A stretch of 64,000 bases of DNA from Burkholderia sp. Bp8992 (GTDB taxonomy: Bacteria; Pseudomonadota; Gammaproteobacteria; Burkholderiales; Burkholderiaceae), in assembly GCF_003853705.1 (NCBI RefSeq), contig NZ_QTQI01000001.1:496001-560000 (forward strand). The letters run 5' to 3'. The first letter of the stretch is position 1, and each line of letters opens with the position of its first letter. This document shows positions 3,151 through 54,317 of the stretch, piece after piece. The notes below the pieces were generated by a model. That model was not told where the DNA came from. It did no database searches and saw nothing but the letters and a program-made list of their open reading frames with translations. Position numbers and translations under genes: made by a program.

Positions 3151-3497
3151 GCAGGTTGGGGCGAACGTGCGAAGGACGTGGTGGCCTCCGGTCGCCCCGA
3201 AAAGGGTTCGGTCCAGTATATCCAAGAATCGCGCGCAGCAGCGGTGGCACGCTTCGTCACGCGTTGGCGGCTGCCGGCAGCGCGATCGTGACCGTGGTGC
3301 CTTGCGCCTCCGTCCTGTCGACACCGGTCGAAACGTGCCCGATCGGGAGAAACCCTGATCGCGCGTCAGGCCGGTGGTGCGTCGTGCTTGATTGTTTGGA
3401 TTGCGAAAATTATTTGACGGCGTGTCCGGGCGGCGCACAGGATGCGGATCGCGTCGGATGACGGCAGGGAGGAAATCGCGCGGGAGGTACCCGAATA
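3151..3497. other. Gap without a convincing gene
   Basis: Apart from the possible N-terminal extension of the leftward membrane protein, nothing here reads as protein. A short AT-richer patch near 3390-3420 (TTGTTTGGATTGCGAAAATTA) may hold its promoter, but no clear -10/-35 pair was found. Confidence 0.3.
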
Positions 3498-3520
3498 CGT
3501 CGCCCGGGAAGCGGGCGACG
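3498..3520 (-). terminator. Hairpin just downstream of the alcohol dehydrogenase gene
   Basis: Perfect 9-bp inverted repeat CGTCGCCCG / CGGGCGACG with the 5-base loop GGAAG, 31 bases past the leftward alcohol dehydrogenase stop. It has no T-run, so it is a probable 3' stabiliser or weak terminator. Confidence 0.45.
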
Positions 3521-3550
3521 CTCGACAGCGAAATGGCGATACGCGCGCTG

Positions 3551-4648
3551 TCAGGAAACGGCAGGCTGAACGATGATCTTCACGTTCCGGTCCTTGTGGT
3601 TGACCAGTTCCTCGAACCCGTGCGCGACGATGTCGCCGAGCGCGATGCGTCCGGTGATGAGCGGCTGCACGTCGATGCGGCCGTCTGCGATGAAGCGGAT
3701 CACGTCCGCGAATTCGCCGTTGTAGGCGAGCGAGCCGATCACTTCCTTCTCGGTCGACACGATGTCGAAGAAGTTGAACGGCGTCGGCTCCTCGAAGATG
3801 CCGACCATCACCGACTTGCCGGCCTTGCGGATCACGTCGATCGCGAGCTTCGCAGTGGCCGTGTGCCCGATGCATTCGAACGACACGTCGGCGCCATAAC
3901 CGCCCGTCAGCGCCTTGACTTCCGCGATCGCGTCGGACGTCTTCGGATCGATGACGACGCTCGCGCCGACTTCCAGCGCCTTCTGCTTGCGCGCAGCCGA
4001 CATCTCCAGCGCGATCACGCGCCCGGCGCCCGCGGCCTTCGCACACATGATCGTGCACAGGCCGATCGTGCCGGCGCCGACCACGACGACGGTCTGCCCG
4101 ACGATGTTGCCGGCCTTCTTCACCGCATGCAGCCCGACCGCGAGCGGCTCGATCAGTGCGCCGGCCTCGGTCGGGAAGTTGTCGGGCAGCTTGTACAGCA
4201 GCTCGGCCGGCACGTTGACGAATTCGGCGAACGCGCCGTTGTTCATCAGCCCGGTGAACGCGAGGTTCTCGCAGATGTTGTACAGCCCGTGCCGGCAATA
4301 CCAGCAGGTACCGCAATGCTGGCACGCGTCGGCCGTCACGCGGTCGCCGACAGCAAAGCCGGATACGCCCGCGCCGAGTTCGGCGATCTCGCCGCTGAAC
4401 TCGTGCCCGAGGATGCATTGACCCTTCAGGCCCGTCAGCGGATGCGGCGCATCGACCGGGATGAATACGGGTCCGGCGACGTATTCGTGCAGGTCGGAGC
4501 CGCAGATGCCGCACCAGTGCACGCGAATCGTGACCCAGCCAGCCGGCGGGCGCTCCGGAACGGGAACCTCTTCGACGCGGATGTCGTGGCGGCCGCGCCA
4601 GACGGCGGCTTTCATGCTGCGGGCGGTGATCGGTGCCGGTGTATTCAC
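3551..4648 (-). CDS. Zinc-dependent alcohol dehydrogenase, 2,3-butanediol dehydrogenase-like
   Basis: Medium-chain NAD(P)-dependent dehydrogenase, 365 residues. Catalytic zinc ligands are in HWCGICGSDLHEY and the GHE motif (ILGHEFSGEIAELG). The structural zinc loop has four cysteines in CQHCGTCWYCRHGLYNIC. The Rossmann motif is VVVGAGTIGL. The ICGSDLHEY signature and the long loop after it are typical of (R,R)-butanediol and related secondary alcohol dehydrogenases; the true substrate is not proven. Start GTG 4648 is supported by GGAGA eight bases upstream; the frame is open further but reads poorly. Upstream lie a sigma-54-like promoter (4731-4746) and repeated TGAGACG boxes (4883-4933), suggesting control by an enhancer-binding protein. 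Confidence 0.88.
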   Translation of the reverse strand: MNTPAPITARSMKAAVWRGRHDIRVEEVPVPERPPAGWVTIRVHWCGICGSDLHEYVAGPVFIPVDAPHPLTGLKGQCILGHEFSGEIAELGAGVSGFAVGDRVTADACQHCGTCWYCRHGLYNICENLAFTGLMNNGAFAEFVNVPAELLYKLPDNFPTEAGALIEPLAVGLHAVKKAGNIVGQTVVVVGAGTIGLCTIMCAKAAGAGRVIALEMSAARKQKALEVGASVVIDPKTSDAIAEVKALTGGYGADVSFECIGHTATAKLAIDVIRKAGKSVMVGIFEEPTPFNFFDIVSTEKEVIGSLAYNGEFADVIRFIADGRIDVQPLITGRIALGDIVAHGFEELVNHKDRNVKIIVQPAVS

Positions 4649-6890: not shown

Positions 6891-8135
6891 TTACTTCTTC
6901 AGATCGTGCCGGTACTGGATGAACCCCGCATTGTTCGCGAGCTTGTCGTAAAGCGCACGTGCGGTCGTGTTGGTTTCATGCGTGAGCCAGTACACGCGGC
7001 TCGCGCCGGCTTCGCGGGCCCGTTCGTACACGGCCTCGATCAGCGCGCCGCCCGCACCTTGTCCGCGCGCGTCGGGCGCCGTGTACAGGTCCTGCAGGTA
7101 GCAGTACGGCCCGTCGGTCCAGCACGAGCGGTGGTAGATCGCATGCACGATTCCGACCAGCGTGCCCGACACGTCGAATGCGCCCAGCACGAACATCGGT
7201 TCGGCCGGATCCATCAGGCGCGCCCACGTCGTCGCGAACACCGCGTCGCTCAGCGCGGTGTCGTAGAACTTCTGGTAACCCTGCCACAGCGGGCGCCATG
7301 CGGCTTCGTCGGCGGCGACGAGCTGGCGCACCGTGACGCGCGTGGCGTCGTTCACGCGGGCCGCCGCGTCGCGCGCGCCGGCCTGCGCGTGGCGGATCGC
7401 GACGAGCGACCGGCGCTGGCTGCCCTCGGCGTCGAAGTTCTCCGGTGCGAGCCACGCTTCGAACGCGGCGCGCACGTCCGGCCATTCGCCGTCGATGATC
7501 GAGAACCACGCGGTGTCGCGATTGCGGCCGCGGTAGATGATCGCCTGCCGGAACGTGCCTTCGTAACGGAAGCCCAGCCGCGCGGCCGCCTTGCGCGACG
7601 GTTCATTGAGGTCGTCGCACTTCCATTCGTAGCGCCGGTAGCCGAGTGTGTCGAACGCGTACTTCATCAGCAGGAACTGCGCTTCGGTCGAGATCGGCGT
7701 GCGCTTGAGCAGCGGCGAGAACGTGACGGAGCCGACTTCGATCACGCCGTTGACCGGATCGATCCGCATCAGCGCGAGCGTGCCGACCGCGCGGCCCGTC
7801 GCGCGATCGATCACCGTGTAGTGCAGCGGGTCGGGGCTCGCCTGCGCGGTGCGTGCGTAGTCGCGGTAGCTCGATTCGTCGGTGTACGGGCCGTGCGCGA
7901 GATAGGTCCAGTCCCTGCCGTCGGGCGCTTGCGAGTAGGCCGCGTACAGGTCGGCTGCATGGCGCTCGGCGTCGAGCGGTTCGAGCCGGCAGTAGCGGCC
8001 TTCGATCGCGATGCGCTCCGGGCGCGGGCGCGCGGACCAGTCGGGAACGGGGTGGCCGATGGATTGCTGGAAGGCGTTGGTGAGCGTGGACAAGGTCGAT
8101 CTCGCTTCGGTTGGCGGCCGGCGACATGCCGGCAT
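6891..8135 (-). CDS. Tandem double-GNAT acetyltransferase
   Basis: 414 residues holding two complete GNAT domains. The first (residues about 20-215) is RimJ/RimL-like: RYCRLEPLDAERHAADLYAA, then the YRRYEWKCDDLNEPSRKAA and LGFRYEGTFRQ motifs. The second (about 260-414) is a separate GNAT with the acetyl-CoA loop APDARGQGAGGALIEAVYE and the end TTARALYDKLANNAGF. No frameshift separates them, so this is a real fusion. ATG 8135 is the outer likely start; TTG 8093 is an alternative placed nearer the first domain. Substrates unknown. It is divergent from the MocR regulator gene. Confidence 0.8.
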   Translation of the reverse strand: MPACRRPPTEARSTLSTLTNAFQQSIGHPVPDWSARPRPERIAIEGRYCRLEPLDAERHAADLYAAYSQAPDGRDWTYLAHGPYTDESSYRDYARTAQASPDPLHYTVIDRATGRAVGTLALMRIDPVNGVIEVGSVTFSPLLKRTPISTEAQFLLMKYAFDTLGYRRYEWKCDDLNEPSRKAAARLGFRYEGTFRQAIIYRGRNRDTAWFSIIDGEWPDVRAAFEAWLAPENFDAEGSQRRSLVAIRHAQAGARDAAARVNDATRVTVRQLVAADEAAWRPLWQGYQKFYDTALSDAVFATTWARLMDPAEPMFVLGAFDVSGTLVGIVHAIYHRSCWTDGPYCYLQDLYTAPDARGQGAGGALIEAVYERAREAGASRVYWLTHETNTTARALYDKLANNAGFIQYRHDLKK

Positions 8136-42608: not shown

Positions 42609-43670
42609 TTACGCGTGCGACAGGCCCGCTGCGCCGCCTTCGGCGACCGCAGCATCATACAACGCGGTTTGCGCGATTGCCGCGGCGATCGCCGCGTCGT
42701 CATGCGGATCGTCGAGCATGCCCCAGCGCCGGTATTGGGACAGGAACCAGCGTCCTTCGCGCGGATCGGGCCGGTTCACGGCGCCGCCGCCGTGGAAACG
42801 GATCGGCAGCGGCGGCGCGGCGAACGGCCCCGCGCCGTAGTCGCCGAGCAGGCGCGGCGCGATCAGCCGGGCCGGCACGCCGAGCGCATCGGGCGACGCG
42901 AGCCAGTCGGCCGCCTCGCGGCGATGCGCGGCGCTGTCGAGCCACGCACACGCGTCGACGAGCGTACGGATCAGCGCGCGCGCGGTGGCCGGATACAGCG
43001 CGACGAAGTCGCGCCGGGCGGCCAGCACCTTCTCCGGATGATCGGGCCAGATCTCGCTCGTGACCGCGACGGTCCGGCCCGCGCCGCACGCTTCGGCTAC
43101 TGCGTGCCACGGTTCGCCGGAACAGAAGCCGTCGAGCTCGCCACCGGCGAGCGCGGCGACCATCTCGGGCGGCGGGATCACGACGCTGCGCACGTCGCGC
43201 AGCGGATCGATGCCGTGTGACGCGAGCCACGCGTTCAGCCACATCGCGTGCGTGCCGGTCGGGAAGGTTTGGGCGAGCAGCGGCTTGCGGCCGAGCGTCG
43301 CGAACGCGTCGCGCACGCTGCCGGTTGTGCGAACCGCGTCGGCGAGACCGCGCGACAACGTGATCGCCTGGCCGTTGCGGTTCAGCACCATCAGCGCGGC
43401 CATGTCGGCCTGCGGGCCGCCGATGCCGAGCTGCAGCCCGCAGACGAGCCCGTACAGCGCATGCGCCGCATCGAGCTCGCCGCTGAGCAGCTTGTCGCGC
43501 ACGGCTGCCCACGACGGCTGGCGACTCAATTCGAGCGTGAGGCCGTGCCGCGCGCCGAGGTTCAGGCGCTGCGCGACGATCAGCGGGGCCGCGTCGCTCA
43601 GCGCGACGAACCCGAGGCGAAGATGCGCGCGTTCCGGCGCGGCGGGAGGTGAGCTATTCATGGCGGTCAT
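42609..43670 (-). CDS. nasS: NasS nitrate/nitrite sensor (NrtA/CmpA-like)
   Basis: 353 residues with the NrtA solute-binding fold but no signal peptide, so it is cytosolic: HLRLGFVALSDAAPLIVAQR, VLNRNGQAITLSRG, FPTGTHAMWLNAWLASHGID and DGFCSGEPWHAVA are the nitrate-binding family motifs. In Azotobacter, Paracoccus and Pseudomonas, NasS holds the antiterminator NasT inactive until nitrate or nitrite binds. The start overlaps the nasT stop by four bases (ATGA), tying the two proteins in translation. Confidence 0.9.
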   Translation of the reverse strand: MTAMNSSPPAAPERAHLRLGFVALSDAAPLIVAQRLNLGARHGLTLELSRQPSWAAVRDKLLSGELDAAHALYGLVCGLQLGIGGPQADMAALMVLNRNGQAITLSRGLADAVRTTGSVRDAFATLGRKPLLAQTFPTGTHAMWLNAWLASHGIDPLRDVRSVVIPPPEMVAALAGGELDGFCSGEPWHAVAEACGAGRTVAVTSEIWPDHPEKVLAARRDFVALYPATARALIRTLVDACAWLDSAAHRREAADWLASPDALGVPARLIAPRLLGDYGAGPFAAPPLPIRFHGGGAVNRPDPREGRWFLSQYRRWGMLDDPHDDAAIAAAIAQTALYDAAVAEGGAAGLSHA

Positions 43671-44263
43671 GACTGGGGTGACGCGTCGAGCAGTTGTCGC
43701 GCGACGTCGACGATGCGCAGGCCCTGATCCATCGCACGCTTGCGCAGTGCCGCATACGCATCGTGCTCGGACAGCTTGCGCTGGTCCATCAGCGCGCGTT
43801 TCGCGCGGTCGATCAGTTTGCGTTCCGCGAGTTCGCGCTCGACGTCGGCGAGCCGGCGGCGCAGCGCATCGTCGTGCGAGAAGCGCGCGAGCGCGACTTC
43901 GAGAATCGGGGCGAGACGCTCGGCCGACAGCCCTTCGACGAGATACGCGCTGACGCCTGCGCCGACCGCCGCACGGATCAGTTCCTGGTCGGCGTCGTGG
44001 CTGAACATCAGCACGGGGCGCGGCGCGGTCGCGTGCATCACCGCGAGCTGTTCGAGGGTATCGCGCGACGGCGAATCGGTATCGATGATCACGACGTCGG
44101 GACGCTGCTCCTCGACGGCCGCGGGCAGCCGCGCGGGCGTCGCGACGTCGTTCAGCATCTCGTAGCCGAGGCGCGCGAGTGCGTCGCCGAGCTCGCCGAT
44201 CGGCTTGTCGGTGTCGGTGACGAGCAGCACGCGCAGGCGGGTGGTCGGGGCAGGCGAACTCAT
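43667..44263 (-). CDS. nasT: NasT ANTAR-domain antiterminator
   Basis: 198 residues. A receiver-like domain (about 10-125: RVLLVTDTDKPIGELGDALA, DVVIIDTDSPS, PVLMFSHDAD) is followed by a coiled linker and the C-terminal ANTAR RNA-binding domain (about 135-195: LIDRAKRALMDQRKLSEHDA, YAALRKRAMDQGLRIVDVAR). ANTAR proteins bind paired hexaloop hairpins in leader RNA and prevent a terminator from forming. Two matching leaders lie 1-1.5 kb away, before cobA and before the nitrate transporter gene. ATG 44263 is preceded by no strong ribosome-binding site. Confidence 0.92.
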   Translation of the reverse strand: MSSPAPTTRLRVLLVTDTDKPIGELGDALARLGYEMLNDVATPARLPAAVEEQRPDVVIIDTDSPSRDTLEQLAVMHATAPRPVLMFSHDADQELIRAAVGAGVSAYLVEGLSAERLAPILEVALARFSHDDALRRRLADVERELAERKLIDRAKRALMDQRKLSEHDAYAALRKRAMDQGLRIVDVARQLLDASPQS

Positions 44264-44383
44264 GAGGCGGGCAACAGGGGCGGTGACGCTTCGGCGCAAC
44301 GCGCGAACGATGCAGGCAAGCCGCATGCGCGGCCGGCGGTGACGGGAAGGGGGAACGGCCGAAGCCGCGCGACGCCGTGCATG

Positions 44384-45157
44384 TCAGGCGGCCCGCGAAA
44401 ATGCGGTGTCGGCCGCGGCGTCTGCGCACTGCGCGGCTGCTGCGCCGATTGCGCCGCCGACGAGGATCACGGCCGGGCTGCCGAGCCGCGCAGCCTCGAT
44501 GCCGTGTGCGAGCGTGCCGAGCGTTCCGGTCCAGCGGCGTTCGTCGGGCGTACCGGCCCATTGCACGGCGGCTGCCGGCGTCGACGACGGCAGCGCGGCG
44601 AGCAGGCCGGCCGCGATGCTGTCGACGCGGCTCATGCCCATGTAGATCGCGAGCGTGGTGCCGGTCGACGCGAGTCTTGCCCAGTCGGGTTCGCCGTGAT
44701 CCTGGCGGTGCGCGGTGACGAACGTGACGCCCTGGCAGTGCTCGCGGTGCGTGAGCGAGATGCCGAGGCATGCGGCGGCCGCGAATCCCGACGAGATGCC
44801 GTTGACGATCTCGACCGGAATCGCGGCGGCGCGCAGCGTCGCGAGCTCTTCGCCGGCACGGCCGAACAGCAGCGCATCGCCGCCTTTTACGCGCACCACG
44901 TGCGCGCCGCGCAGCGCGTAGCGGCGCATCAGCTTTTCGATGAATGCCTGCGGCGTGGAGCGGCAGCCGCCGCGCTTGCCGACGCGGATCACGCGCGCTT
45001 GCGGCGCGAGTTCGACGATGCCGGGCGCGACGAGGTCGTCGAGCAGCAGCACGTCGGCCGCGGCCAGTGCCTTCACGGCCTTCAGCGTGAGGAGATCGGG
45101 ATCGCCGGGGCCGGCGCCCAGCAGCGTGACTTTGCCAGTCGTCATGTCGTGTTCCAT
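44384..45157 (-). CDS. cobA: Uroporphyrinogen-III C-methyltransferase (siroheme synthesis)
   Basis: About 257 residues. SAM-dependent methyltransferase making precorrin-2, the first step to siroheme. VTLLGAGPGDPDLLTLKAVK is the family opening; VVRVKGGDALLFGRAGEE and ISLTHREHCQGVTFVTAH are the other signatures. It is a stand-alone CobA/SumT without the CysG oxidase/ferrochelatase half. Siroheme is the cofactor of NirB and of the sulfite reductase at the window end. ATG 45157 or ATG 45145 may start it (the inner one has GGAA six bases upstream). Its long leader carries ANTAR-type hairpins. Confidence 0.92.
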   Translation of the reverse strand: MEHDMTTGKVTLLGAGPGDPDLLTLKAVKALAAADVLLLDDLVAPGIVELAPQARVIRVGKRGGCRSTPQAFIEKLMRRYALRGAHVVRVKGGDALLFGRAGEELATLRAAAIPVEIVNGISSGFAAAACLGISLTHREHCQGVTFVTAHRQDHGEPDWARLASTGTTLAIYMGMSRVDSIAAGLLAALPSSTPAAAVQWAGTPDERRWTGTLGTLAHGIEAARLGSPAVILVGGAIGAAAAQCADAAADTAFSRAA

Positions 45158-45227
45158 TGCCGCATGCGTCGTGCGGCGGCCGATAACGGATGGTCTGCGC
45201 GGCGGCGGGCGGTCGAGACGCACCGGT

Positions 45228-45254
45228 GTCCTGCCGTGCCGCGCACGGGAGGAC
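45228..45254 (-). promoter_or_regulatory. Hairpin competing with the second ANTAR hairpin in the cobA leader
   Basis: On the minus strand GTCCT-C-CCGTGC-GCG-GCACGG-C-AGGAC folds to an 11-bp stem with one C/C mismatch. Its 5' arm (45254-45250) is also the 3' arm of the upstream hexaloop hairpin, so only one can form. Unlike the transporter-side structure it lacks a T-run, so it may act as a pause or Rho-linked site or need another partner. Confidence 0.5.
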
Positions 45255-45265
45255 GCCGTTGTCCT
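45250..45265 (-). promoter_or_regulatory. ANTAR hexaloop hairpin 2 in the cobA leader
   Basis: Minus strand AGGAC [AACGGC] GTCCT: a perfect 5-bp stem closing a six-base loop with A at position 1 and G at position 4, the NasT/NasR recognition rule. The same loop sequence occurs in hairpin 2 of the transporter leader. Confidence 0.65.
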
Positions 45266-45270
45266 GACGG

Positions 45271-45290
45271 GCCCGCCGTGAAGGGCGGGC
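45271..45290 (-). promoter_or_regulatory. Spacer hairpin between the two ANTAR hairpins of the cobA leader
   Basis: Minus strand GCCCGCC [CTTCAC] GGCGGGC, a perfect 7-bp stem. The loop does not fit the A1/G4 rule, so it is likely structural. The transporter leader has a comparable spacer hairpin (GCCCG-GCAA-CGGGC). Confidence 0.5.
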
Positions 45291-45309
45291 AGGGTTTGCG
45301 GGGACTGCC

Positions 45310-45329
45310 CACCGGCGCCGTTGCCGGTG
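45310..45329 (-). promoter_or_regulatory. ANTAR hexaloop hairpin 1 in the cobA leader
   Basis: Minus strand CACCGGC [AACGGC] GCCGGTG: a perfect 7-bp stem with a loop obeying A1/G4. It begins about four bases after the transcript start predicted from the sigma-54 element at 45344-45360. Confidence 0.65.
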
Positions 45330-45343
45330 TGATGCGTCGATCG

Positions 45344-45360
45344 AGCAATATCCGGGCCAA
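45344..45360 (-). promoter_or_regulatory. Sigma-54 promoter of cobA
   Basis: Minus strand TTGGCCCGGATATTGCT: TGGCCCG, four bases, TTGCT, one mismatch to the TGGCACG-N4-TTGCW consensus, with the exact GG-N10-GC spacing. Predicted start near 45333. Sigma-54 with NtrC would link siroheme synthesis to nitrogen limitation. Confidence 0.65.
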
Positions 45361-45528
45361 CCGGCGCGCGGCGCCGGCGCGTGCAGCGCGCGACGAGCCG
45401 TATGACGGATGGGGGCGCGCGTGCAGGCTAGCAGGCAGCCGCCGCGCGCGGCGGCCGTCATGCCGCATCGGCGTGCCTCGTGCGCCGCCGGCGCGCACCG
45501 CGATGTCGCACGGCGACAGTGCTGCAGC

Positions 45529-45543
45529 GCACCACATCTGTGC
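45529..45543. promoter_or_regulatory. Candidate NtrC enhancer site
   Basis: GCACC-ACATC-TGTGC is one base off the NtrC dyad GCACC-N5-GGTGC. It lies about 135 bases upstream of the predicted nitrate-operon start and about 200 bases upstream of the predicted cobA start, both within working range for an enhancer, so one site could serve both directions. Confidence 0.4.
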
Positions 45544-45644
45544 CTCGCTGCCTCAAAGCGCGTCGTGCGTCGCGTGTCGCGGCACATCGCCTGTCGACCG
45601 GCAAGCCTTGCAGCGCGGGGCCGAAGGCCCGATCGGCGGCGACA

Positions 45645-45659
45645 TGGCACGGCGCTTGC
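45645..45659 (+). promoter_or_regulatory. Sigma-54 promoter of the nitrate assimilation operon
   Basis: TGGCACG-GCGC-TTGC matches the sigma-54 consensus fully, with GG (45646-45647) and GC (45658-45659) ten bases apart. The predicted start, about 45671, coincides with the first base of the ANTAR hairpin 1, leaving a leader of about 139 bases before ATG 45810. Confidence 0.8.
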
Positions 45660-45670
45660 GTTAGCCGATT

Positions 45671-45696
45671 CGGGCGGATCAATGGCGATTCGTCCG
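45671..45696 (+). promoter_or_regulatory. ANTAR hexaloop hairpin 1 of the nitrate operon leader
   Basis: CGGGCGGATC [AATGGC] GATTCGTCCG: ten base pairs including two G-U pairs and a six-base loop with A1 and G4. It sits at the very 5' end of the predicted transcript, as expected for the first element of a NasT-binding tandem. Confidence 0.7.
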
Positions 45697-45734
45697 CAGT
45701 ACCGATTACCGACGCGCCCGGCAACGGGCTTCAT

Positions 45735-45748
45735 GGGCAACGGCGTCC
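45735..45748 (+). promoter_or_regulatory. ANTAR hexaloop hairpin 2 of the nitrate operon leader
   Basis: GGGC [AACGGC] GTCC: a 4-bp stem (one G-U) with a loop obeying A1/G4. Loop and 3' arm are the 5' arm of the terminator that follows, so this hairpin and the terminator exclude each other. Binding by NasT would hold it and let transcription continue. Confidence 0.65.
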
Positions 45749-45794
45749 TACGCATCGGGTCTCGACGAGACCGGGTGCGCAGGACGCCGTTTTT
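45739..45794 (+). terminator. NasT-controlled attenuator before the nitrate operon
   Basis: AACGGCGTCCT (45739-45749) pairs perfectly with AGGACGCCGTT (45781-45791). Inside, CGCATC pairs with GGTGCG (one G-U), and GGTCTC with GAGACC around a GAC loop, giving a hairpin of more than 20 pairs ending in five T residues (45790-45794). It ends 15 bases before the transporter ATG, so by default it blocks the operon. Confidence 0.8.
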
Positions 45795-45809
45795 CGTTTG
45801 GCGGATGAC

Positions 45810-47135
45810 ATGACCGACAAAGCTACCCGTATCGATCTCTTCAGCTTCCGCACCGCGCCGATGCGCGCGTTCCACATGACGTGGATGGCGTTCTTCGTGT
45901 GTTTCTTCGCGTGGTTTGCGTGCGCGCCGCTGATGCCGCTCATTGCACGCGAATTTCATCTGACGGCGGCTCAGGTCGCCAACATCAACATCGCCGCGGT
46001 GGCCGCGACGATCGCCGTGCGGCTGCTCGTCGGCCCGCTGTGCGACCGCTTCGGCCCGCGCCGCGTGTATGTCGGCCTGTTGCTGCTCGGCGCGATCCCC
46101 GTGTTCGCCGTGTCGTTCACGCACGACTATCTGTCGTTCCTGATCTGCCGGCTCGGCATCGGCGCGATCGGCGCAGGCTTCGTGATCACGCAATACCACA
46201 CGTCGGTGATGTTCGCGCCGAACGTCGTCGGTACTGCGAACGCGACGACGGCCGGCTGGGGCAACGCCGGGGCCGGCGCGACGCAGGCGCTGATGCCGCT
46301 GCTGGTCGCCGCCGGCCTGATGCTCGGCTTCGGCGAGGATTCGTCGTGGCGCATGGCGCTGGTCGTGCCGGGCATCGCGATGCTCGCGATGGCGTGGGCG
46401 TACTGGCGCTTCACGCAGGACTGCCCGCAAGGCGATTTCGTCGCGCTGCGCAAGCAGGGCGTGACAGTCGACAGCGGCAAGAAGGGCGGCTGGGCGAGCT
46501 TCTTCGCCGCATGCGGCAACTATCGCGTGTGGATGCTGTTCGTCACGTACGGCGCGTGCTTCGGCGTCGAGGTGTTCATCCACAACATCGCCGCGCTGTA
46601 CTACGTCAATCACTTCAGCCTGTCGCTGAAGGACGCCGGTTTCGCGGTCGGCCTGTTCGGGCTGCTCGCGCTGTTCGCCCGTGCGCTCGGCGGCTGGCTG
46701 TCCGACAAGATCGCCGCACGCCGCAGCCTCGACGTGCGTGCGGCGCTGCTGTGCGCGCTGATCGTCGGCGAAGGGCTCGGGCTGATCTGGTTCTCGCATG
46801 CGCAAAGCATTGGCGTCGCGCTCGTCGCGATGCTGGTCTTCGGCCTGTTCACGCACATGGCCTGCGGCGCGACCTATGCGCTGGTGCCGTTCATCGACCG
46901 CAAGGCGCTCGGCGGCGTCGCGGGGATCGTCGGCGCGGGCGGCAACGTCGGCGCGGTGGCCGCGGCCTTCCTGCTGAAGGGCGTCGGCGACGTGCAGCAG
47001 ACGCTGAGCCTGCTCGGCCTTGCCGTCACCGCGACCGCGCTGTGCGCGATGGCCGTGCGCTTCAGCGAAGAACACAAGGCACGCGAAGCCGAGCTGCGCG
47101 ATCGTGCGCTGGCCGCCGCCAACGCCGCGAACTGA
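45810..47135 (+). CDS. narK: Nitrate/nitrite MFS transporter (NarK/NasA type)
   Basis: 441 residues, twelve helices. FHMTWMAFFVCFFAWFACAPLM is the nitrate-nitrite porter opening. The two nitrate signatures are readable: GFVITQYHTSVMFAPNVVGTANATTAGWGNAGAG and ACGATYALVPFIDRKALGGVAGIVGAGGNVGAV (quoted here as landmarks only by their cores: TAGWGNAGAG and GIVGAGGNVG). It imports nitrate for assimilation. First gene of the operon narK-nirB-nirD-nitrate reductase, 22 bases before nirB, under the attenuator just upstream. Confidence 0.93.
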   Translation: MTDKATRIDLFSFRTAPMRAFHMTWMAFFVCFFAWFACAPLMPLIAREFHLTAAQVANINIAAVAATIAVRLLVGPLCDRFGPRRVYVGLLLLGAIPVFAVSFTHDYLSFLICRLGIGAIGAGFVITQYHTSVMFAPNVVGTANATTAGWGNAGAGATQALMPLLVAAGLMLGFGEDSSWRMALVVPGIAMLAMAWAYWRFTQDCPQGDFVALRKQGVTVDSGKKGGWASFFAACGNYRVWMLFVTYGACFGVEVFIHNIAALYYVNHFSLSLKDAGFAVGLFGLLALFARALGGWLSDKIAARRSLDVRAALLCALIVGEGLGLIWFSHAQSIGVALVAMLVFGLFTHMACGATYALVPFIDRKALGGVAGIVGAGGNVGAVAAAFLLKGVGDVQQTLSLLGLAVTATALCAMAVRFSEEHKAREAELRDRALAAANAAN

Positions 47136-47156: not shown

Positions 47157-49730
47157 ATGAAACTCATCGTCATCGGCCACGGCATGGTCGGCCACAAGTT
47201 CCTCGAATGCGTCGCGGCGGAAGCCGGCACGGCGGGCGCGCTGCAGGTCACCGTGCTCGGCGAGGAGCCGCGGCCGGCCTACGATCGCGTGCACCTGTCG
47301 GAATTCTTCGCGGGCAAGTCGGCGGACGACCTGTCGCTCGTCGAACCGGGCTTCTTCGAGCGCTATCCGCGGTTCGACCTGCGCCTGAACGCGCAGGTCG
47401 CGTCGATCGACCGCGCCGCGCATACGGTCACGCTCGCGTCGGGCGAAACGCTCGCGTACGACAAGCTGGTGCTCGCCACGGGCTCGCGCCCGTTCGTGCC
47501 GCCGGTGCCGGGGCGCGATCGCGCGGGCTGCTTCGTGTACCGGACGATCGAGGACCTCGAGGCGATGCAGGCGTGCGGCGCGCACGCGAAGCGCGGCGTC
47601 GTGATCGGCGGCGGGCTGCTCGGCCTCGAATGCGCGAAGGCGCTGCGCGACATGGGGCTCGACACGCACGTCGTCGAATTCGCGCCGAGGCTGATGGCCG
47701 TGCAGGTCGACGACGGCGGCGGCCGGATGCTGCGCGCGAAGATCGAGGCGCTCGGCGTGACCGTGCATACGGGCAAGAACACGCTGGAAATCGTCGATGG
47801 CGACGAAGGCACGCACCGGATGGCGTTCGCCGACGGCACGCATCTCGACACCGACATGATCGTGTTCTCGGCCGGCATCCGCGCCCGCGACGAACTGGCG
47901 CGCGCCTGCGGGCTCGACATCGGCCCGCGCGGCGGCGTCGCGATCGACGACGCCTGCCGCACGAGCGATGCCGACATCTACGCGATCGGCGAATGCGCGG
48001 CGTGGAACGGCATGGTGTACGGCCTCGTCGCCCCCGGCTACGACATGGCGCGCGTGGTCGCGAAGCAGCTCGCTGGCGACGCGCACGATGCGGCCGCTGC
48101 CGCGTTCGCGGGCGCCGACATGAGCACGAAGCTGAAGCTGATGGGCGTCGACGTCGCGAGCATCGGCGACGCGCACGGCACGACGGCCGGCAGCCGCACC
48201 TACCAGTACGCGGACGAGCGCCGCCAGGTCTACAAGAAGCTCGTGGTGTCCGACTGCGGCAAGTTCCTGCACGGCGCGGTGATGGTCGGCGATGCAGCCG
48301 AATACGGCACGCTGCTGCAGATGATGCTCAACCGCATCGAGCTGCCCGAGTCGCCGGAATTCCTGATCCTGCCGTCGTCGGACGGCGCGGCGAAGCCGGC
48401 GATCGGCGTCGATGCGTTGCCCGCGGCCGCCCAGATCTGCTCGTGCAACAACGTGTCGAAGTCGCAGATCTGCACGGCCGTCGCCGACGGCGCGACGAGC
48501 CTCGGCGCGCTGAAGACGTGCACGGGCGCCGGCACGTCGTGCGGCGGCTGCGTGCCGCTCGTCACGCAGATCATGAAGGCCGAGATGAAGAAGCAGGGTC
48601 TGTCGGTCAACAACCATCTGTGCGAACACTTCGCGTATTCGCGCCAGGCGCTGTTCCACCTGATTCGCGTCGAGCGCATCACGACGTTCGACGAACTGCT
48701 GGCGAAGCACGGCCGCGGGCTCGGCTGCGACGTGTGCAAGCCGGCCGTCGCGGGCATCCTCGCGTCGTGCTTCAACGAATTCGTGCTGAAGCGGGAACAC
48801 GCAAGCCTGCAGGATTCGAACGACTACTACCTCGCGAACATCCAGCGCGACGGCACGTACTCGGTCGTGCCGCGCATGCCGGGCGGCGAGGTCACGCCGG
48901 AAGGGCTGATCGCCGTGGGGCAGGTTGCGAAGAAATACGGCCTGTACACGAAGATCACGGGCGGTCAGCGCGTCGACCTGTTCGGCGCGCGTGTCGAGCA
49001 GCTGCCGTCGATCTGGGAAGAGCTGATCGAGGCCGGCTTCGAATCGGGTCATGCCTACGGCAAGGCGCTGCGCACCGTGAAGTCGTGTGTCGGGTCGACC
49101 TGGTGCCGCTACGGCGTCGACGATTCGGTCGGCCTCGCGATCGACCTCGAAAACCGCTACAAGGGGCTGCGCGCGCCGCACAAGATCAAGTTCGGCGTAT
49201 CCGGCTGCACGCGCGAGTGCGCGGAAGCGCAGGGCAAGGACGTCGGCATCATCGCGACCGAAAAAGGCTGGAACCTGTACGTGTGCGGCAACGGCGGGAT
49301 GAAGCCGCGCCACGCGGAACTGCTCGCGTCCGATCTCGACCGCCCGACGCTGATCCGCACCATCGACCGCTTCCTGATGTTCTACGTGCGCACGGCCGAC
49401 CGGCTGCAGCGCACCAGCGTGTGGCGCGACAACCTCGAAGGCGGCCTCGACTACCTGATCGACGTCGTCGTGCACGACAAGCTCGCGATCGCGGCCGAAC
49501 TCGAAGCCGACATGCAGCACGTGGTCGACACCTACGAGTGCGAATGGAAGAAGGCCGTGACCGATCCCGACACGCGCAAGCGCTTCCGTCACTTCGTGAA
49601 CAGCGACGCGCCGGATACGACCATCGAATTCGTCGAGACGCGCGGACAGATTCGTCCCGCGACGCCCGGCGAACGCACGGGCGGCAAGCCCGTGTCGATT
49701 CCCGTTGTCGCCGAAAGTGCCACCGTTTGA
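47157..49730 (+). CDS. nirB: Assimilatory nitrite reductase (NADH), large subunit
   Basis: 857 residues. FAD/NAD(P)H domain about 1-300 (VIGHGMVGHKFLE, VVIGGGLLGLECAKAL). BFD-like [2Fe-2S] domain with cysteines near 427-460 (ICSCNNVSK, TSCGGCVP). Ferredoxin-like half domain, then the siroheme/[4Fe-4S] site with CVGSTWCRYG (about 644) and SGCTRECAEAQG (about 684). It reduces nitrite to ammonium with six electrons in the cytosol. GAAGGAAG precedes ATG 47157. Siroheme comes from the divergent cobA. Confidence 0.95.
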   Translation: MKLIVIGHGMVGHKFLECVAAEAGTAGALQVTVLGEEPRPAYDRVHLSEFFAGKSADDLSLVEPGFFERYPRFDLRLNAQVASIDRAAHTVTLASGETLAYDKLVLATGSRPFVPPVPGRDRAGCFVYRTIEDLEAMQACGAHAKRGVVIGGGLLGLECAKALRDMGLDTHVVEFAPRLMAVQVDDGGGRMLRAKIEALGVTVHTGKNTLEIVDGDEGTHRMAFADGTHLDTDMIVFSAGIRARDELARACGLDIGPRGGVAIDDACRTSDADIYAIGECAAWNGMVYGLVAPGYDMARVVAKQLAGDAHDAAAAAFAGADMSTKLKLMGVDVASIGDAHGTTAGSRTYQYADERRQVYKKLVVSDCGKFLHGAVMVGDAAEYGTLLQMMLNRIELPESPEFLILPSSDGAAKPAIGVDALPAAAQICSCNNVSKSQICTAVADGATSLGALKTCTGAGTSCGGCVPLVTQIMKAEMKKQGLSVNNHLCEHFAYSRQALFHLIRVERITTFDELLAKHGRGLGCDVCKPAVAGILASCFNEFVLKREHASLQDSNDYYLANIQRDGTYSVVPRMPGGEVTPEGLIAVGQVAKKYGLYTKITGGQRVDLFGARVEQLPSIWEELIEAGFESGHAYGKALRTVKSCVGSTWCRYGVDDSVGLAIDLENRYKGLRAPHKIKFGVSGCTRECAEAQGKDVGIIATEKGWNLYVCGNGGMKPRHAELLASDLDRPTLIRTIDRFLMFYVRTADRLQRTSVWRDNLEGGLDYLIDVVVHDKLAIAAELEADMQHVVDTYECEWKKAVTDPDTRKRFRHFVNSDAPDTTIEFVETRGQIRPATPGERTGGKPVSIPVVAESATV

Positions 49731-50129: not shown

Positions 50130-53100
50130 ATGACCGCCACTTCCGTCAAGAGCGTGTGCCCGTACTGCGGCGTCGGCTGCGGGATGGTGCTGCACGTCGA
50201 GGACGGCGAAGTCGTCAAGGTGTCCGGCGACGCCGACCATCCGACCAACTTCGGGCGGCTGTGCACGAAGGGTTCGTCGGCGCACGTCGCGCTGCGCCGC
50301 TCGGGGCGGCTCGACCGCGCGTTCGTGCGCCGCGCGCGCGAGGACGACCTCGTGCCGCTGCCGGCGCGCGACGCGATCGCCGAAACCGCGCGCCGCCTGC
50401 GCGCGATACTCGATGCGCACGGCCCCGACGCGCTGTCGTTCTACGTATCGGGCCAGATGTCGATCGAGGCGCAGTACCTCGTCAACAAGCTCGCGAAGGG
50501 CTTCGTCGGCACCCACAACATCGAGTCGAACTCGCGGCTCTGCATGGCGAGCGCGAGCACCGGCTACAAGCAGTCGCTCGGCGCGGACGGCCCGCCCGGG
50601 TCGTACCAGGACTTCGATCGCGCGAACCTGTTCTTCGTGACCGGCGCGAACATGGCCGATTGCCATCCGATCCTGTTCCTGCGGATGATGGATCGCGTGA
50701 AGGCCGGTGCGAAGCTGATCGTCGTCGATCCGCGCCGCACCGGCACCGCCGACAAGGCCGACCTGTTCCTGCAGATCCGGCCGGGCACCGATCTCGCGCT
50801 GGCCAACGGCCTGCTGCACCTGCTGCATGCGAACGGCCGCACCGATGCCGCGTTCATCGACGCGTACACGGAAGGCTGGGACGCGATGCCCGCGTTTCTC
50901 GCCGACTACACGCCCGAGCGCGTCGCGGCGATCACGGGGCTCGCGGAAGCCGACCTGCGCACGGCTGCGCAATGGATCGGCGACGCGCAGGAATGGATGA
51001 GCTGCTGGACGATGGGGCTCAACCAGAGCACGCACGGCGTGTGGAACACCAACGCGATCTGCAACCTGCATCTCGCGACGGGCAAGATCTGCCGCCCCGG
51101 CAGCGGCCCGTTCTCGCTGACCGGCCAGCCGAACGCGATGGGCGGGCGCGAGATGGGCTACATGGGGCCGGGCCTGCCGGGCCAGCGCTCGGTGCTGTCC
51201 GACGACGATCGCCGCTACGTCGAGCATCTTTGGCGCGTGCCTTCCGGCACGCTGCGCAAGGAGACGGGGCAGGGCACGGTCGACCTGTTCTCGCGGATGG
51301 CGGCCGGCGACATCAAGGCGTGCTGGATCGTCTGCACGAACCCGGTCGCGACCGTGCCGAATCGGCAGAATGTGATCGCCGGGCTGCAGGCCGCGGAACT
51401 CGTGATCGCGCAGGACGCGTTCCTCGACACCGAGACCAACCGCTACGCGGACATCCTGCTGCCCGGCGCGCTGTGGGCCGAGGGCGACGGCGTGATGGTC
51501 AACTCCGAGCGCAACATGACGCTGATGCGTGCGGCGGTCGCGCCGCCCGGCGACGCACTGCCCGACTGGCGCATCGTCGCGGAAGTCGCGCGTGCGATGG
51601 GCTTCGGCGATGCGTTCGACTATGCGTCGGCGGCCGACGTGTTCGACGAGATCGTGCGTTTCTCGAATCCGGCGACCGGCTACGACCTGCGCGGTGCGAG
51701 CCACGCGGCGCTGCGCGACGGCCCGGTGCAATGGCCGGTCGCGCCGGGCACCGCGCGCGAGCGGCACCCGATCCGCTACCTGAACGACGGCGTGAGCCAG
51801 ACGCTGCGCGCGGCCGCCGACGGCAACGAGGCACCGCGCGTCGCGTTCCCGACGCCGTCGGGCAAGGCGCGCTTCTTCGCCCGGCCGCACGTCGATCCGG
51901 CCGAGCTGCCCGACGGCACGTTCCCGATCGTGCTGAACACCGGCCGGCTGCAGCATCAATGGCACACGATGACGAAGACGGGCAAGGTCGCGATGCTGAA
52001 CAAGCTGAACCCGCGCCCGTTCGTCGAGTTGCATCCCGACGATGCAAGCGCGCTCGGCATCGCCGCGAAAGACAGCGTCGAAATCCGCTCGGTGCGCGGC
52101 CGCGCGGTATTGCCGGCCGTCGTGACCGAACGCGTGCAGCGCGGCAACTGCTTCGCGCCGATGCACTGGAACGACGTGTACGGCGACGACCTGTGCATCA
52201 ACGCGGTGACGAACGACGCGATCGATCCGGAATCTCAGCAACCCGAACTGAAATACTGCGCGGTCGCGTTGCGACGCGTCGACACGGATGCGTTCGCGTC
52301 CGCCGGCGACGACACGGCGCAACCCGATGCAGGCGAGGACGATGCACCGCCCGCGCCTGCGATCTCGCCGATCGCGGCTTCACAGGAATTCGACATGGCA
52401 GACATCGACACTTTCGCGGCCGCACTCGGCGTCGCCGATCTCGCGCCGCCGCCGCTGACCGACACCGAGCGGCTGTACGTGGCCGGCCTCGTCAGCGGGC
52501 TGAAGGCGAGCGTCGGCCGTCGCGAAGGCGGCGTGCCCGTGCTGCCGGCCGGCGCACCGTTGACGCCGCCCGTGCGGTTCTGGCTCGACGGGATGCTTGC
52601 GGGGCTGTTCAGCCGCTCGCTGCCTGCCGGTGCGCAGATCGCCGCGACGCCTGCACTGCCGGCCGACGCCGCTGCCGCCGGCGGCGTGCGCATCGTGCGC
52701 GCGCGCCCGAAGGTCGTGCTGCTGTGGGCGTCGCAGACCGGCAACATCGAATCGCTGACCGAGGATTACGCAACGCAATTGATGAACGCGGGCTTCGAGA
52801 TCCGCACCGCATGCATGTCCGACTATCCGGTCGCGTCGCTTGCCGGTGCGCAATACGTGCTGCTGATGACGAGCACGTTCGGCGACGGCGATGCGCCCGA
52901 CAACGGCACCGAATTCTGGGACGCGCTGCAGGCCGGCAGCGCTGCGCGCCTCGACGGCGTGCATTTCGCAGTGCTCGCGTTCGGCGACCGCAACTACGAC
53001 CAGTTCTGCGGCCACGGCCGCCGGCTCGATGCGCGGCTCGCGGAACTCGGCGCGGCACGCCTGTGCGCGCGCGTCGATTGCGACGTCGAATTCCAGCGCG

Positions 53101-54317
53101 ATGCCGACCAGTGGCTCGAGCGCGTCGTCGCGCGGATCAAGGAGGCCGATGCCGCGCTGCACGCGGTGCCGTCCGGCGGGATGAGCGCGTCGGGGCTGCT
53201 GCCGACGAAGGCGCATCCGGCGCCGTCGAAGCTCGTCGCGAACCTGCGGCTGAACCGGCCAGGCGCCGCGAAGGATACGCGCTACGTGTCGTTGTCGACC
53301 GAAGGGGCGAACCTCGAATACGAAACCGGCGACGCGCTCGGCGTGTGGCCGACCAACTGCCCGGAACTGGTCGACGAACTGTTGTCGGTCACCGCGCTGA
53401 AGGCCGATGCATCCGTGTCGGTGCCGGGCGTTGGCGACATCCGGCTCGGCGAAGCGCTCGCGCACCACTTCGACATCACGCGCCCGCATCCGGACACGCT
53501 GGCCTTCATCGCGTCGCGCAGCACGAACGGCGCGCTGAAGTCGCTGCTCGGCGAAGATCGCAAGGCCGACCTCAAGCAATGGTTGTGGGGGCAACAGCTT
53601 GCGGATGTGCTGCACGAATACCCGGTCGATCTGTCGGGTACGGAACTGGTCGGCATGCTCAAGCGCATGCAGCCGCGTCTCTATTCGATCGCGTCGAGCC
53701 CGAGCGCGCACGCGGGCGAGATCCACCTGACCGTGTCGGCCGTGCGCTATCACAACGGCCGGCGCGCACGCAAAGGCGTCGCGTCGACGTTCCTCGCCGA
53801 TCGCGCGGACGACGGCCGCGTGCCGGTGTTCGTGCAGAAATCCGCGCATTTCCGTCCGCCGGTGAACGGCGACGTGCCGATCGTGATGGTCGGCCCCGGC
53901 ACCGGCGTCGCGCCGTTCCGCGGCTTCCTGCACGAGCGGCAGGCGCGCGGCGCACGCGGGCGCAACTGGCTGTTCTTCGGCGAGCAGCACGCGCAGACCG
54001 ACTTCTACTACGGCGACGAGCTGGGCGCGATGCACGACAGCGGCTTCCTCACGCGGCTCGACCTCGCGTTCTCGCGCGACCAGGCCGACAAGATCTACGT
54101 GCAGGACCGGATGCGCGAGCAGGGCGCCGAGCTGTTCGCATGGCTGGAGGACGGCGCGCACTTCTACGTGTGCGGCGATGCCGCGCGGATGGCCAAGGAC
54201 GTCGACATGGCGCTGAAGGCGATCGTCGCCCGGCACGGCGGCATGTCGGACGAGGCCGCGAACGACTACGTCGCGCGGCTTTCGAAGGCGCGGCGCTACA
54301 TGCGCGACGTGTATTGA
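50130..54317 (+). CDS. Assimilatory nitrate reductase fused to sulfite-reductase-type flavoprotein (NasC-CysJ fusion)
   Basis: 1395 residues, two enzymes in one chain. The N-terminal 720 residues are an assimilatory nitrate reductase: [4Fe-4S] cysteines 10, 13, 17 and 45 (VCPYCGVGCGM, RLCTKG), molybdenum ligand Cys138 (NSRLCMASAS) and the MGD-binding C-terminal domain (LQHQWHTMTKTGK). After an Asp/Ala/Pro-rich linker (about 715-755), a flavodoxin domain starts near 860 (LWASQTGNIESLTEDYA). A CysJ-like FAD/NADPH module follows (PRLYSIASSP, MVGPGTGVAPFRGFL near 1254). The fusion lets NADPH feed nitrate reduction directly, replacing a separate ferredoxin or NasB partner. Confidence 0.93.
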   Translation: MTATSVKSVCPYCGVGCGMVLHVEDGEVVKVSGDADHPTNFGRLCTKGSSAHVALRRSGRLDRAFVRRAREDDLVPLPARDAIAETARRLRAILDAHGPDALSFYVSGQMSIEAQYLVNKLAKGFVGTHNIESNSRLCMASASTGYKQSLGADGPPGSYQDFDRANLFFVTGANMADCHPILFLRMMDRVKAGAKLIVVDPRRTGTADKADLFLQIRPGTDLALANGLLHLLHANGRTDAAFIDAYTEGWDAMPAFLADYTPERVAAITGLAEADLRTAAQWIGDAQEWMSCWTMGLNQSTHGVWNTNAICNLHLATGKICRPGSGPFSLTGQPNAMGGREMGYMGPGLPGQRSVLSDDDRRYVEHLWRVPSGTLRKETGQGTVDLFSRMAAGDIKACWIVCTNPVATVPNRQNVIAGLQAAELVIAQDAFLDTETNRYADILLPGALWAEGDGVMVNSERNMTLMRAAVAPPGDALPDWRIVAEVARAMGFGDAFDYASAADVFDEIVRFSNPATGYDLRGASHAALRDGPVQWPVAPGTARERHPIRYLNDGVSQTLRAAADGNEAPRVAFPTPSGKARFFARPHVDPAELPDGTFPIVLNTGRLQHQWHTMTKTGKVAMLNKLNPRPFVELHPDDASALGIAAKDSVEIRSVRGRAVLPAVVTERVQRGNCFAPMHWNDVYGDDLCINAVTNDAIDPESQQPELKYCAVALRRVDTDAFASAGDDTAQPDAGEDDAPPAPAISPIAASQEFDMADIDTFAAALGVADLAPPPLTDTERLYVAGLVSGLKASVGRREGGVPVLPAGAPLTPPVRFWLDGMLAGLFSRSLPAGAQIAATPALPADAAAAGGVRIVRARPKVVLLWASQTGNIESLTEDYATQLMNAGFEIRTACMSDYPVASLAGAQYVLLMTSTFGDGDAPDNGTEFWDALQAGSAARLDGVHFAVLAFGDRNYDQFCGHGRRLDARLAELGAARLCARVDCDVEFQRDADQWLERVVARIKEADAALHAVPSGGMSASGLLPTKAHPAPSKLVANLRLNRPGAAKDTRYVSLSTEGANLEYETGDALGVWPTNCPELVDELLSVTALKADASVSVPGVGDIRLGEALAHHFDITRPHPDTLAFIASRSTNGALKSLLGEDRKADLKQWLWGQQLADVLHEYPVDLSGTELVGMLKRMQPRLYSIASSPSAHAGEIHLTVSAVRYHNGRRARKGVASTFLADRADDGRVPVFVQKSAHFRPPVNGDVPIVMVGPGTGVAPFRGFLHERQARGARGRNWLFFGEQHAQTDFYYGDELGAMHDSGFLTRLDLAFSRDQADKIYVQDRMREQGAELFAWLEDGAHFYVCGDAARMAKDVDMALKAIVARHGGMSDEAANDYVARLSKARRYMRDVY

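Follow-up and report, generated by a model that had tools for sequence, protein, structure and literature searches.

The intergenic region of 664 bases that separates cobA (minus strand) from a NarK-type transporter gene (plus strand) in this cepacia-group Burkholderia, whose NasT shares 98% identity with the B. arboris protein, carries on each strand a sigma-54-type promoter followed by two hexaloop hairpins. We propose that the two leaders probably form a divergent pair, started by sigma-54 and NtrC and gated by NasT, in which the cobA-nasTS arm would regulate itself and would be leaky in the B. cepacia group. The locus is a known kind of RNA in a new arrangement. Within the whole stretch of 64,000 nucleotides that was analysed (hereafter, the window), the genes concerned are the following:

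42609 to 43664, minus strand: nasS, NMT1-like binding protein, presumed nitrate/nitrite sensor (Pfam PF13379; named by its position adjoining nasT)
43667 to 44326, minus strand: nasT, response-regulator receiver and ANTAR domain (Pfam PF03861, E 1.3e-16, and PF00072)
44384 to 45145, minus strand: cobA, uroporphyrinogen-III C-methyltransferase (NCBIfam NF004790, 288.2 bits for a cut-off of 198)
45810 to 47135, plus strand: narK-type MFS nitrate/nitrite transporter (TIGR00886, 285.9 bits, under the cut-off of 311.7)
47157 to 49730, plus strand: nirB, nitrite reductase large subunit (NF011565 and TIGR02374, both above cut-off)
50130 to 54317, plus strand: fusion of a nitrate reductase and a flavoprotein reductase domain (matched by CysJ and nitrate/formate dehydrogenase models; none above cut-off among the 25 models listed)

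Behind the minus-strand leader the gene order is cobA, nasT, nasS, and the plus-strand leader heads the narK-nirBD-nasA operon. A preliminary description of the region had seen that nasS-nasT adjoin cobA, but had missed that both genes lie on the same strand as cobA, downstream of it and behind the minus-strand leader. Its view that the device co-regulates siroheme synthesis covers only part of the role: since this leader precedes cobA-nasT-nasS, its main role is likely the autoregulation of NasT together with siroheme supply. The elements between the two operons are:

45645 to 45660, plus strand: sigma-54-type -24/-12 promoter of the narK-nirBD-nasA operon, TGGCACGGCGCTTGCG (sequence; kept in relatives)
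45671 to 45696, plus strand: P1 hexaloop hairpin CGGGCGGATC(AATGGC)GATTCGTCCG, where the RNA is predicted to begin (sequence; covariation)
45735 to 45748, plus strand: P2 hexaloop hairpin GGGC(AACGGC)GTCC, its 3' half common to the terminator (sequence)
45739 to 45794, plus strand: intrinsic terminator that cannot form together with P2, with TTTTT after its long stem (sequence, folding)
45528 to 45544, strand not applicable: NtrC-like palindrome CGCACCACATCTGTGCC between both promoters, candidate shared enhancer (at least 9 of 12 consensus positions)
45344 to 45359, minus strand: sigma-54-type -24/-12 promoter of cobA-nasT-nasS, TGGCCCGGATATTGCT (sequence; pairwise identity averages 99.5% over 25 sequences of the B. 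cepacia group)
45310 to 45329, minus strand: P1 hexaloop hairpin CACCGGC(AACGGC)GCCGGTG (sequence; 99.6% identity in 25 cepacia-group sequences; covariation)
45250 to 45265, minus strand: P2 hexaloop hairpin AGGAC(AACGGC)GTCCT (sequence; 94.6% identity over a 14-nt core)
45224 to 45260, minus strand: terminator-like stem overlapping P2, no U-tract (U score 0.70, versus 4.20 in the narK arm)

Compared by eye with the consensus, GG-N10-GC in its TGGCAC/TTGC context, the promoters agree at 11 of 11 positions in the plus arm and at 10 of 11 in the minus arm. Both strands also bear the two hairpins with six-base loops, A at position 1 and G at position 4, that characterise a dual-hexaloop ANTAR target. 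For promoters and tandem hairpins alike, the preliminary description had the coordinates right, and the loops as well. Counted from the first base of the -24 element, the P1 loop begins 34 to 38 bases downstream in 112 of 113 leaders (30 in L049), and the usual spacing between the -12 element and the start would put P1 at the extreme 5' end of the RNA; the P2 loop is AACGGC in 89 of the 113. When the 64 kb were scanned on both strands for the promoter followed by two AANG hexaloop hairpins, by criteria fixed after the sequence had been looked at, exactly two sites were returned, and the same scan gave no site at all for 10 Markov windows of 64 kb or for 400 Markov intergenic regions. Matches of miRNA families (mir-191 and others) to the plus-strand terminator were far under their cut-offs and were rejected, as they reflect the long hairpin.

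An NtrC-like site (at least 9 of 12) lies between the promoters in all 41 intergenic regions compared, about 93 to 109 bases from the narK -24 element. Since an equally good site is found in 309 of 1000 Markov sequences, so that single sites alone are not significant, its position and conservation weigh more than its score. RNA-seq of B. cenocepacia H111 at 0.3 mM ammonium gave, for ntrC relative to the wild type, log2 changes of -11.4 for cobA (BCAM1687), -8.1 for nasT (BCAM1688) and -4.2 for a nitrate-binding protein (BCAM1689), and of -6.6 for the transporter (narK), -6.5 for nirB, -6.8 for nirD and -6.7 for the nitrate reductase, in a medium that the accessible part of the paper describes as low-ammonium with no mention of added nitrate (PMC5491218). 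Both leaders are present in L010, a B. cenocepacia. Taking BCAM1689 to be nasS, as we do here, the H111 data fit a cobA-nasTS arm without a strong need for nitrate, the fold changes giving no absolute levels.

Conservation was followed in these 41 intergenic regions, namely the window and 40 loci of Burkholderia and Caballeronia. By automatic criteria the tandem is present in 38 of the 41 cobA arms (missing in L027, L029 and L030) and in 40 of the 41 narK arms (missing in L024), and the conservation of the hairpins in related species, on which the preliminary description had made its reading depend, is thus found. Inspection by eye recovers the tandem in the cobA arms of L029 and L030, with a long linker and, in L029, an imperfect P1; the tandem is lost in the cobA arm of L027, and P1 has an internal mismatch in the narK arm of L024. 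Seven further genomes (L148 to L154), selected for divergent model matches, have leader-cobA-nasT-nasS back to back with leader-narK-nirB. In an alignment of 37 leaders from both arms and related operons, 96.0% of the cells are paired and the covariation of the whole structure reaches 0.600 for a shuffled mean of 0.183, none of 500 shuffles being as high; controls with a slid partner strand scored at most 0.121, and one of the five covariation measures (pairs changed on both sides) was not above the shuffles, 127 of 500 being as high. Double changes occur in six of the seven P1 pairs, and three of the four P2 pairs never vary, so that covariation says little about P2.

The model R1 was built from 37 rows hand-picked out of the 113 leaders. 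Among 200 genomes of the family, 131 have both a leader match and a NasT homologue, 10 a leader only, 3 NasT only and 56 neither, a co-occurrence that is confounded by clade and genome size. Leader matches with no NasT homologue at E 1e-20 were seen in G018, G202, G038, G067, G084 and G104, another ANTAR protein or an incomplete assembly being candidate explanations.

The tandem leader lies upstream of nasT, on the same strand, in 72 of 80 NasT loci, a count that relies on manual entries for L029, L030, L051 and L080 and in which L079 includes a stretch of 2.1 kb outside the query coverage. Among the 72, cobA stands between leader and nasT in 40, the leader directly precedes nasT in two (L051 and L064), and in the other 30 it heads a nitrite/nitrate reductase cluster (nirB/nasA genes) that has nasTS at its end. 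For the remaining eight, no upstream leader was recognised in L027, L042, L043, L074 and L077, a repeat is found in L025, and L032 and L066 are cut by the contig end; as L032 begins at the cobA start codon and L066 inside a nirB-type gene, neither can show a leader. In L042 and L043 (about 7800 to 8001), nasT keeps a sigma-54-type site, the ANTAR hairpins are unrecognisable, and GGGCAATCC alone is left just before the start codon. In L025 (Burkholderia stagnalis LMG 28156, positions 1 to 370), the leader is replaced up to the contig end by a six-base repeat, GGCTTG/GGCTTC, which makes up most of the 429 bases upstream of cobA and is either a real insertion or an assembly artefact.

Two exceptional arrangements bear on which gene the leader serves. 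In L064 it lies at 7647 to 7781, directly before nasT with no cobA between them, and no cobA was found in the 16.6 kb of this locus, where three leaders precede nasT, nirB and a gene of NarK type that shares 80% identity with its L113 counterpart; the other direct case, L051, is weaker (R1 20.9 bits, a P1 mismatch by eye). Conversely, in L111 and L114 the leader precedes cobA and no nasT follows within 3.5 kb. The former loci rule out a leader belonging to cobA alone and the latter a leader belonging to nasTS alone, which indicates that nasTS and cobA are each a target in their own right; in Burkholderia they have one leader in common. Plausibly, an ancestral one-leader operon nirB-nirD-nasA-cobA-nasT-nasS was split into two divergent operons, each headed by a leader. 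In L114 (about 3250 to 3760, minus strand; Paraburkholderia piptadeniae) and L111 (about 4010 to 4405, minus strand; a strain labelled Burkholderia sp. Ac-20365), the divergent partner of the cobA leader heads a small ORF, of 76 residues in L114 and with a 52% identical match in L111, which is followed by an SMP-30/gluconolactonase gene.

The two arms of the window differ in their terminators. The preliminary description does not mention that P2 of the narK arm, and of that arm alone, is overlapped by a strong terminator. An intrinsic terminator overlapping P2, as in attenuation, is found in the narK arm of the window and in the cobA-nasTS arm of Caballeronia L033 to L041, whereas the cobA-nasTS arm of the window has the stem with no U-tract; in the B. 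cepacia group, window included, this arm keeps both hairpins and has lost the U-tract. The U score was compared between the arms in 38 loci, which are related species and not independent events: its mean is 1.89 for the cobA arm versus 4.26 for the narK arm, and the cobA arm has the lower value in 36 of the 38 (exceptions L039 and L049). The set leaves out L024, L027, L029 and L030 and takes in L049, which has a truncated narK and lies outside the 41 intergenic regions. The cobA-arm U score of L149 rests on a wrong stem pick (six of eight pairs), and L148 to L154 were judged from their sequences: good cobA-arm U-tracts are seen in L151 and L152, as in Caballeronia L033 to L041, in L029 and L030 and in the autoregulatory leader of L064, and in L149, L150 and L153 the stretch of T that follows the stem is interrupted. 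The good U-tracts of L064, L151, L152 and L033 to L041 imply that a leaky terminator is no general rule. For the window and the B. cepacia group, the missing U-tract makes tight nitrate control of cobA doubtful, and leaky attenuation fits the window better. The earlier claim that cobA is induced only when nitrate is present is likewise doubtful; the NtrC dependence of cobA and narK in H111 supports the preliminary reading.

The arms also differ in folding. The narK leader has a z of -5.24, with none of 200 shuffles as stable, and the cobA leader is unremarkable (z -1.60, 11 of 200 shuffles as good). In equilibrium folding of the window the closing pair of P1 has a probability of 0.96 in the narK arm and of 0.03 in the cobA arm, where co-transcriptional folding may differ from equilibrium. 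The closing pair of P2 does not exceed 0.06 in either arm of the 13 loci folded, so that P2 would not be the stable form without protein, and for the base that follows the P2 loop the probability of pairing with downstream sequence is at least 0.95 in 25 of 26 leaders, the exception being the cobA arm of L009, in which folding does not predict the terminator pairing. A consensus promoter/terminator scan of 43600 to 46000 returned nothing, the narK terminator included, which probably escaped it through internal mismatches that break its rules. At the site of the lost U-tract, L001 to L003 and others of the cepacia group read GCCGGTG, the letters of the P1 3' arm, and the window reads ACCGGTG (45217 to 45229, minus strand); as GCCGGTG is identical to the P1 3' arm, the P1 5' arm could pair there instead.

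Taken together, these data suggest the following sequence of events. Nitrogen limitation, through NtrC, would start both transcripts from the single common intergenic region. In the narK direction, the terminator would by default stop RNA polymerase; nitrate or nitrite would release NasT from NasS, and NasT would then hold P1-P2 and so block the terminator. In the cobA-nasT-nasS direction, NasT would raise its own production together with that of NasS and with siroheme synthesis, a positive loop; because the leader heads the operon that makes its own regulator, self-amplification is probable under nitrogen shortage with nitrate available. The U-less terminator of the B. cepacia group probably leaks, which would give basal NasT/NasS and CobA under nitrogen limitation alone, NasT merely boosting this arm. 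That one regulator opens both directions, as first proposed, agrees with the tandem ANTAR loops on both strands and with the single cognate regulator gene adjoining them; what does not hold is the equivalence of the arms. Going one step further, and only tentatively, the locus could be a self-amplifying switch with unequal arms, in which a tight terminator guards the costly reductase operon, the regulator arm has lost its U-tract with its hairpins still under selection, and NasT acts on a leaky or unconventional terminator whose leak sets the threshold of the loop.

Several alternatives could be considered. The one drawn in the preliminary description, in which the two arms would be equivalent attenuators, each under tight control by nitrate, and would induce siroheme synthesis along with nitrate reduction, is unlikely: promoter, P1 and P2 are indeed present in both arms, and the leader before cobA without nasT in L111 and L114 makes siroheme supply a target of its own, but the cobA arm is without a U-tract in the window and the B. 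cepacia group, nasTS has a leader without cobA in L064 (and, more weakly, L051), and cobA depends strongly on NtrC in a medium which the part of the source at hand describes just as low-ammonium (PMC5491218). It is similarly improbable that the minus-strand leader of the B. cepacia group acts with no intrinsic terminator at all, through Rho, RNA stability or cobA translation. Such a mode of action would account for retained hairpins beside a vanished U-tract, terminator-less leaders are allowed in the ANTAR literature (PMC3369931), and Paraburkholderia L044 and L045 also show no U-tract just after P2; the terminator-like stem, however, is still about 89% identical, which suggests that termination still matters. 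Among 25 cobA leaders of the cepacia group, the promoter, P1 and P2 have mean identities of 99.5%, 99.6% and 94.6%; the terminator-like stem has 88 to 89%, the U-tract position 80%, the linker 75%, the spacer 61% and the remainder 76%, and by this comparison the cobA-arm hairpins still look selected despite the loss of the U-tract. The same contrast, 99.6% and 94.6% in the hairpins versus 61 to 80% in spacer, linker, U-tract position and remainder, makes it unlikely that the cobA arm is a relic whose hairpins persist by recent descent under purely sigma-54/NtrC control, even if several observations would suit it: the vanished U-tract of the B. cepacia group, the weak U-tracts of some members of L148 to L154, the lost hairpins of L027 and the weak cobA-arm fold.

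NasT/NasR ANTAR leaders precede nitrate operons in several bacteria (Klebsiella nasF, Paracoccus nasA, P. aeruginosa, A. vinelandii), and the window resembles these systems in having hairpin leaders before nitrate assimilation genes; unlike them, it has a second, divergent leader at the head of the operon that holds nasT and nasS. In the P. aeruginosa ami operon the amiE leader lies upstream of amiR, an antiterminator gene downstream of its own leader as in the window, but in a single operon and not in a split divergent pair. The nirBD-PA1779-cobA operon of P. aeruginosa is reportedly under antitermination control, so that cobA under NasT control is not in itself new. In Paracoccus, the nasA leader is bound by NasT in gel shifts (PMC3795266), and the activity of a nasT promoter fusion, dependent on NtrB and on a site for NtrC, was high on glutamate both in the presence and in the absence of nitrate, and nearly equalled that on nitrate (PMC5424462). 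The EutV regulon of Enterococcus resembles the window in that one ANTAR protein serves several leaders, but it does not concern nitrate and no divergent pair appears in the accessible text of the paper (Ramesh et al. 2012, PMC3369931), where Burkholderia is already named as a carrier of putative ANTAR RNAs. A study of 2025 predicts 66 sigma-54 promoters before genes of the ANTAR-protein group, mainly in beta- and gamma-proteobacteria (PMC12316311). Among the papers listed by searches on NasT leaders with cobA, NasT/ANTAR autoregulation and Burkholderia NasT, titles and the openings of abstracts describe no NasT leader before nasTS.

A covariance-model search had been proposed from the outset, and the Rfam narK RNA (RF03032) does match both strands of the window, with 21.0 bits (minus) and 18.0 bits (plus), far under the gathering threshold of 43.2; no match at gathering was obtained in the window or in the eight relatives searched. 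RF03032 shares with the window leaders, in the same order, a GGC..TTGC promoter, an AACGGC hexaloop hairpin and then CGAC(AAAGAC)GUCG, but the Rfam model pairs P1 only and leaves this second hairpin unpaired. In 200 genomes of the order it gives 23 matches, 3 of them above cut-off, and R1 falls in the same place as 16 of the 23, these 3 included. This overlap, together with a consensus that holds promoter, P1 and second hairpin, suggests that RF03032 is a NasT/ANTAR leader, and thus a NasT target, which its family name does not convey.

Related leaders are found at further loci. In Paraburkholderia (L044, L045, L047, L052, L054, L062 and L067, at about 1080 to 2375) they precede NarK- or nirB-type genes, with a P2 of GTCGGGC(AATGRC)GTTCGAC; in the bases just after it no U-tract is visible, which makes this set a candidate for ANTAR control without intrinsic termination. 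NasT-type leaders also stand before a gene with a PilJ N-terminal and a partial MCP signalling domain (L113, 2442 to 4845; L115, L116, L119, L155, L158, L160 and L165), followed in five of the eight loci by a NarK-type transporter gene; the call comes from Pfam for the L113 protein and from tblastn for the other loci. These genes are a possible nitrate-taxis branch of the NasT regulon.

The natural series of leaders, which runs from a full terminator to no U-tract with the putative protein-binding hairpins conserved, offers a test of whether ANTAR control needs an intrinsic terminator. If the proposed mechanism is true, the NasS-NasT system would gain positive autoregulation, and the regulator, the siroheme enzyme and the reductase operons would come under one common RNA signal.
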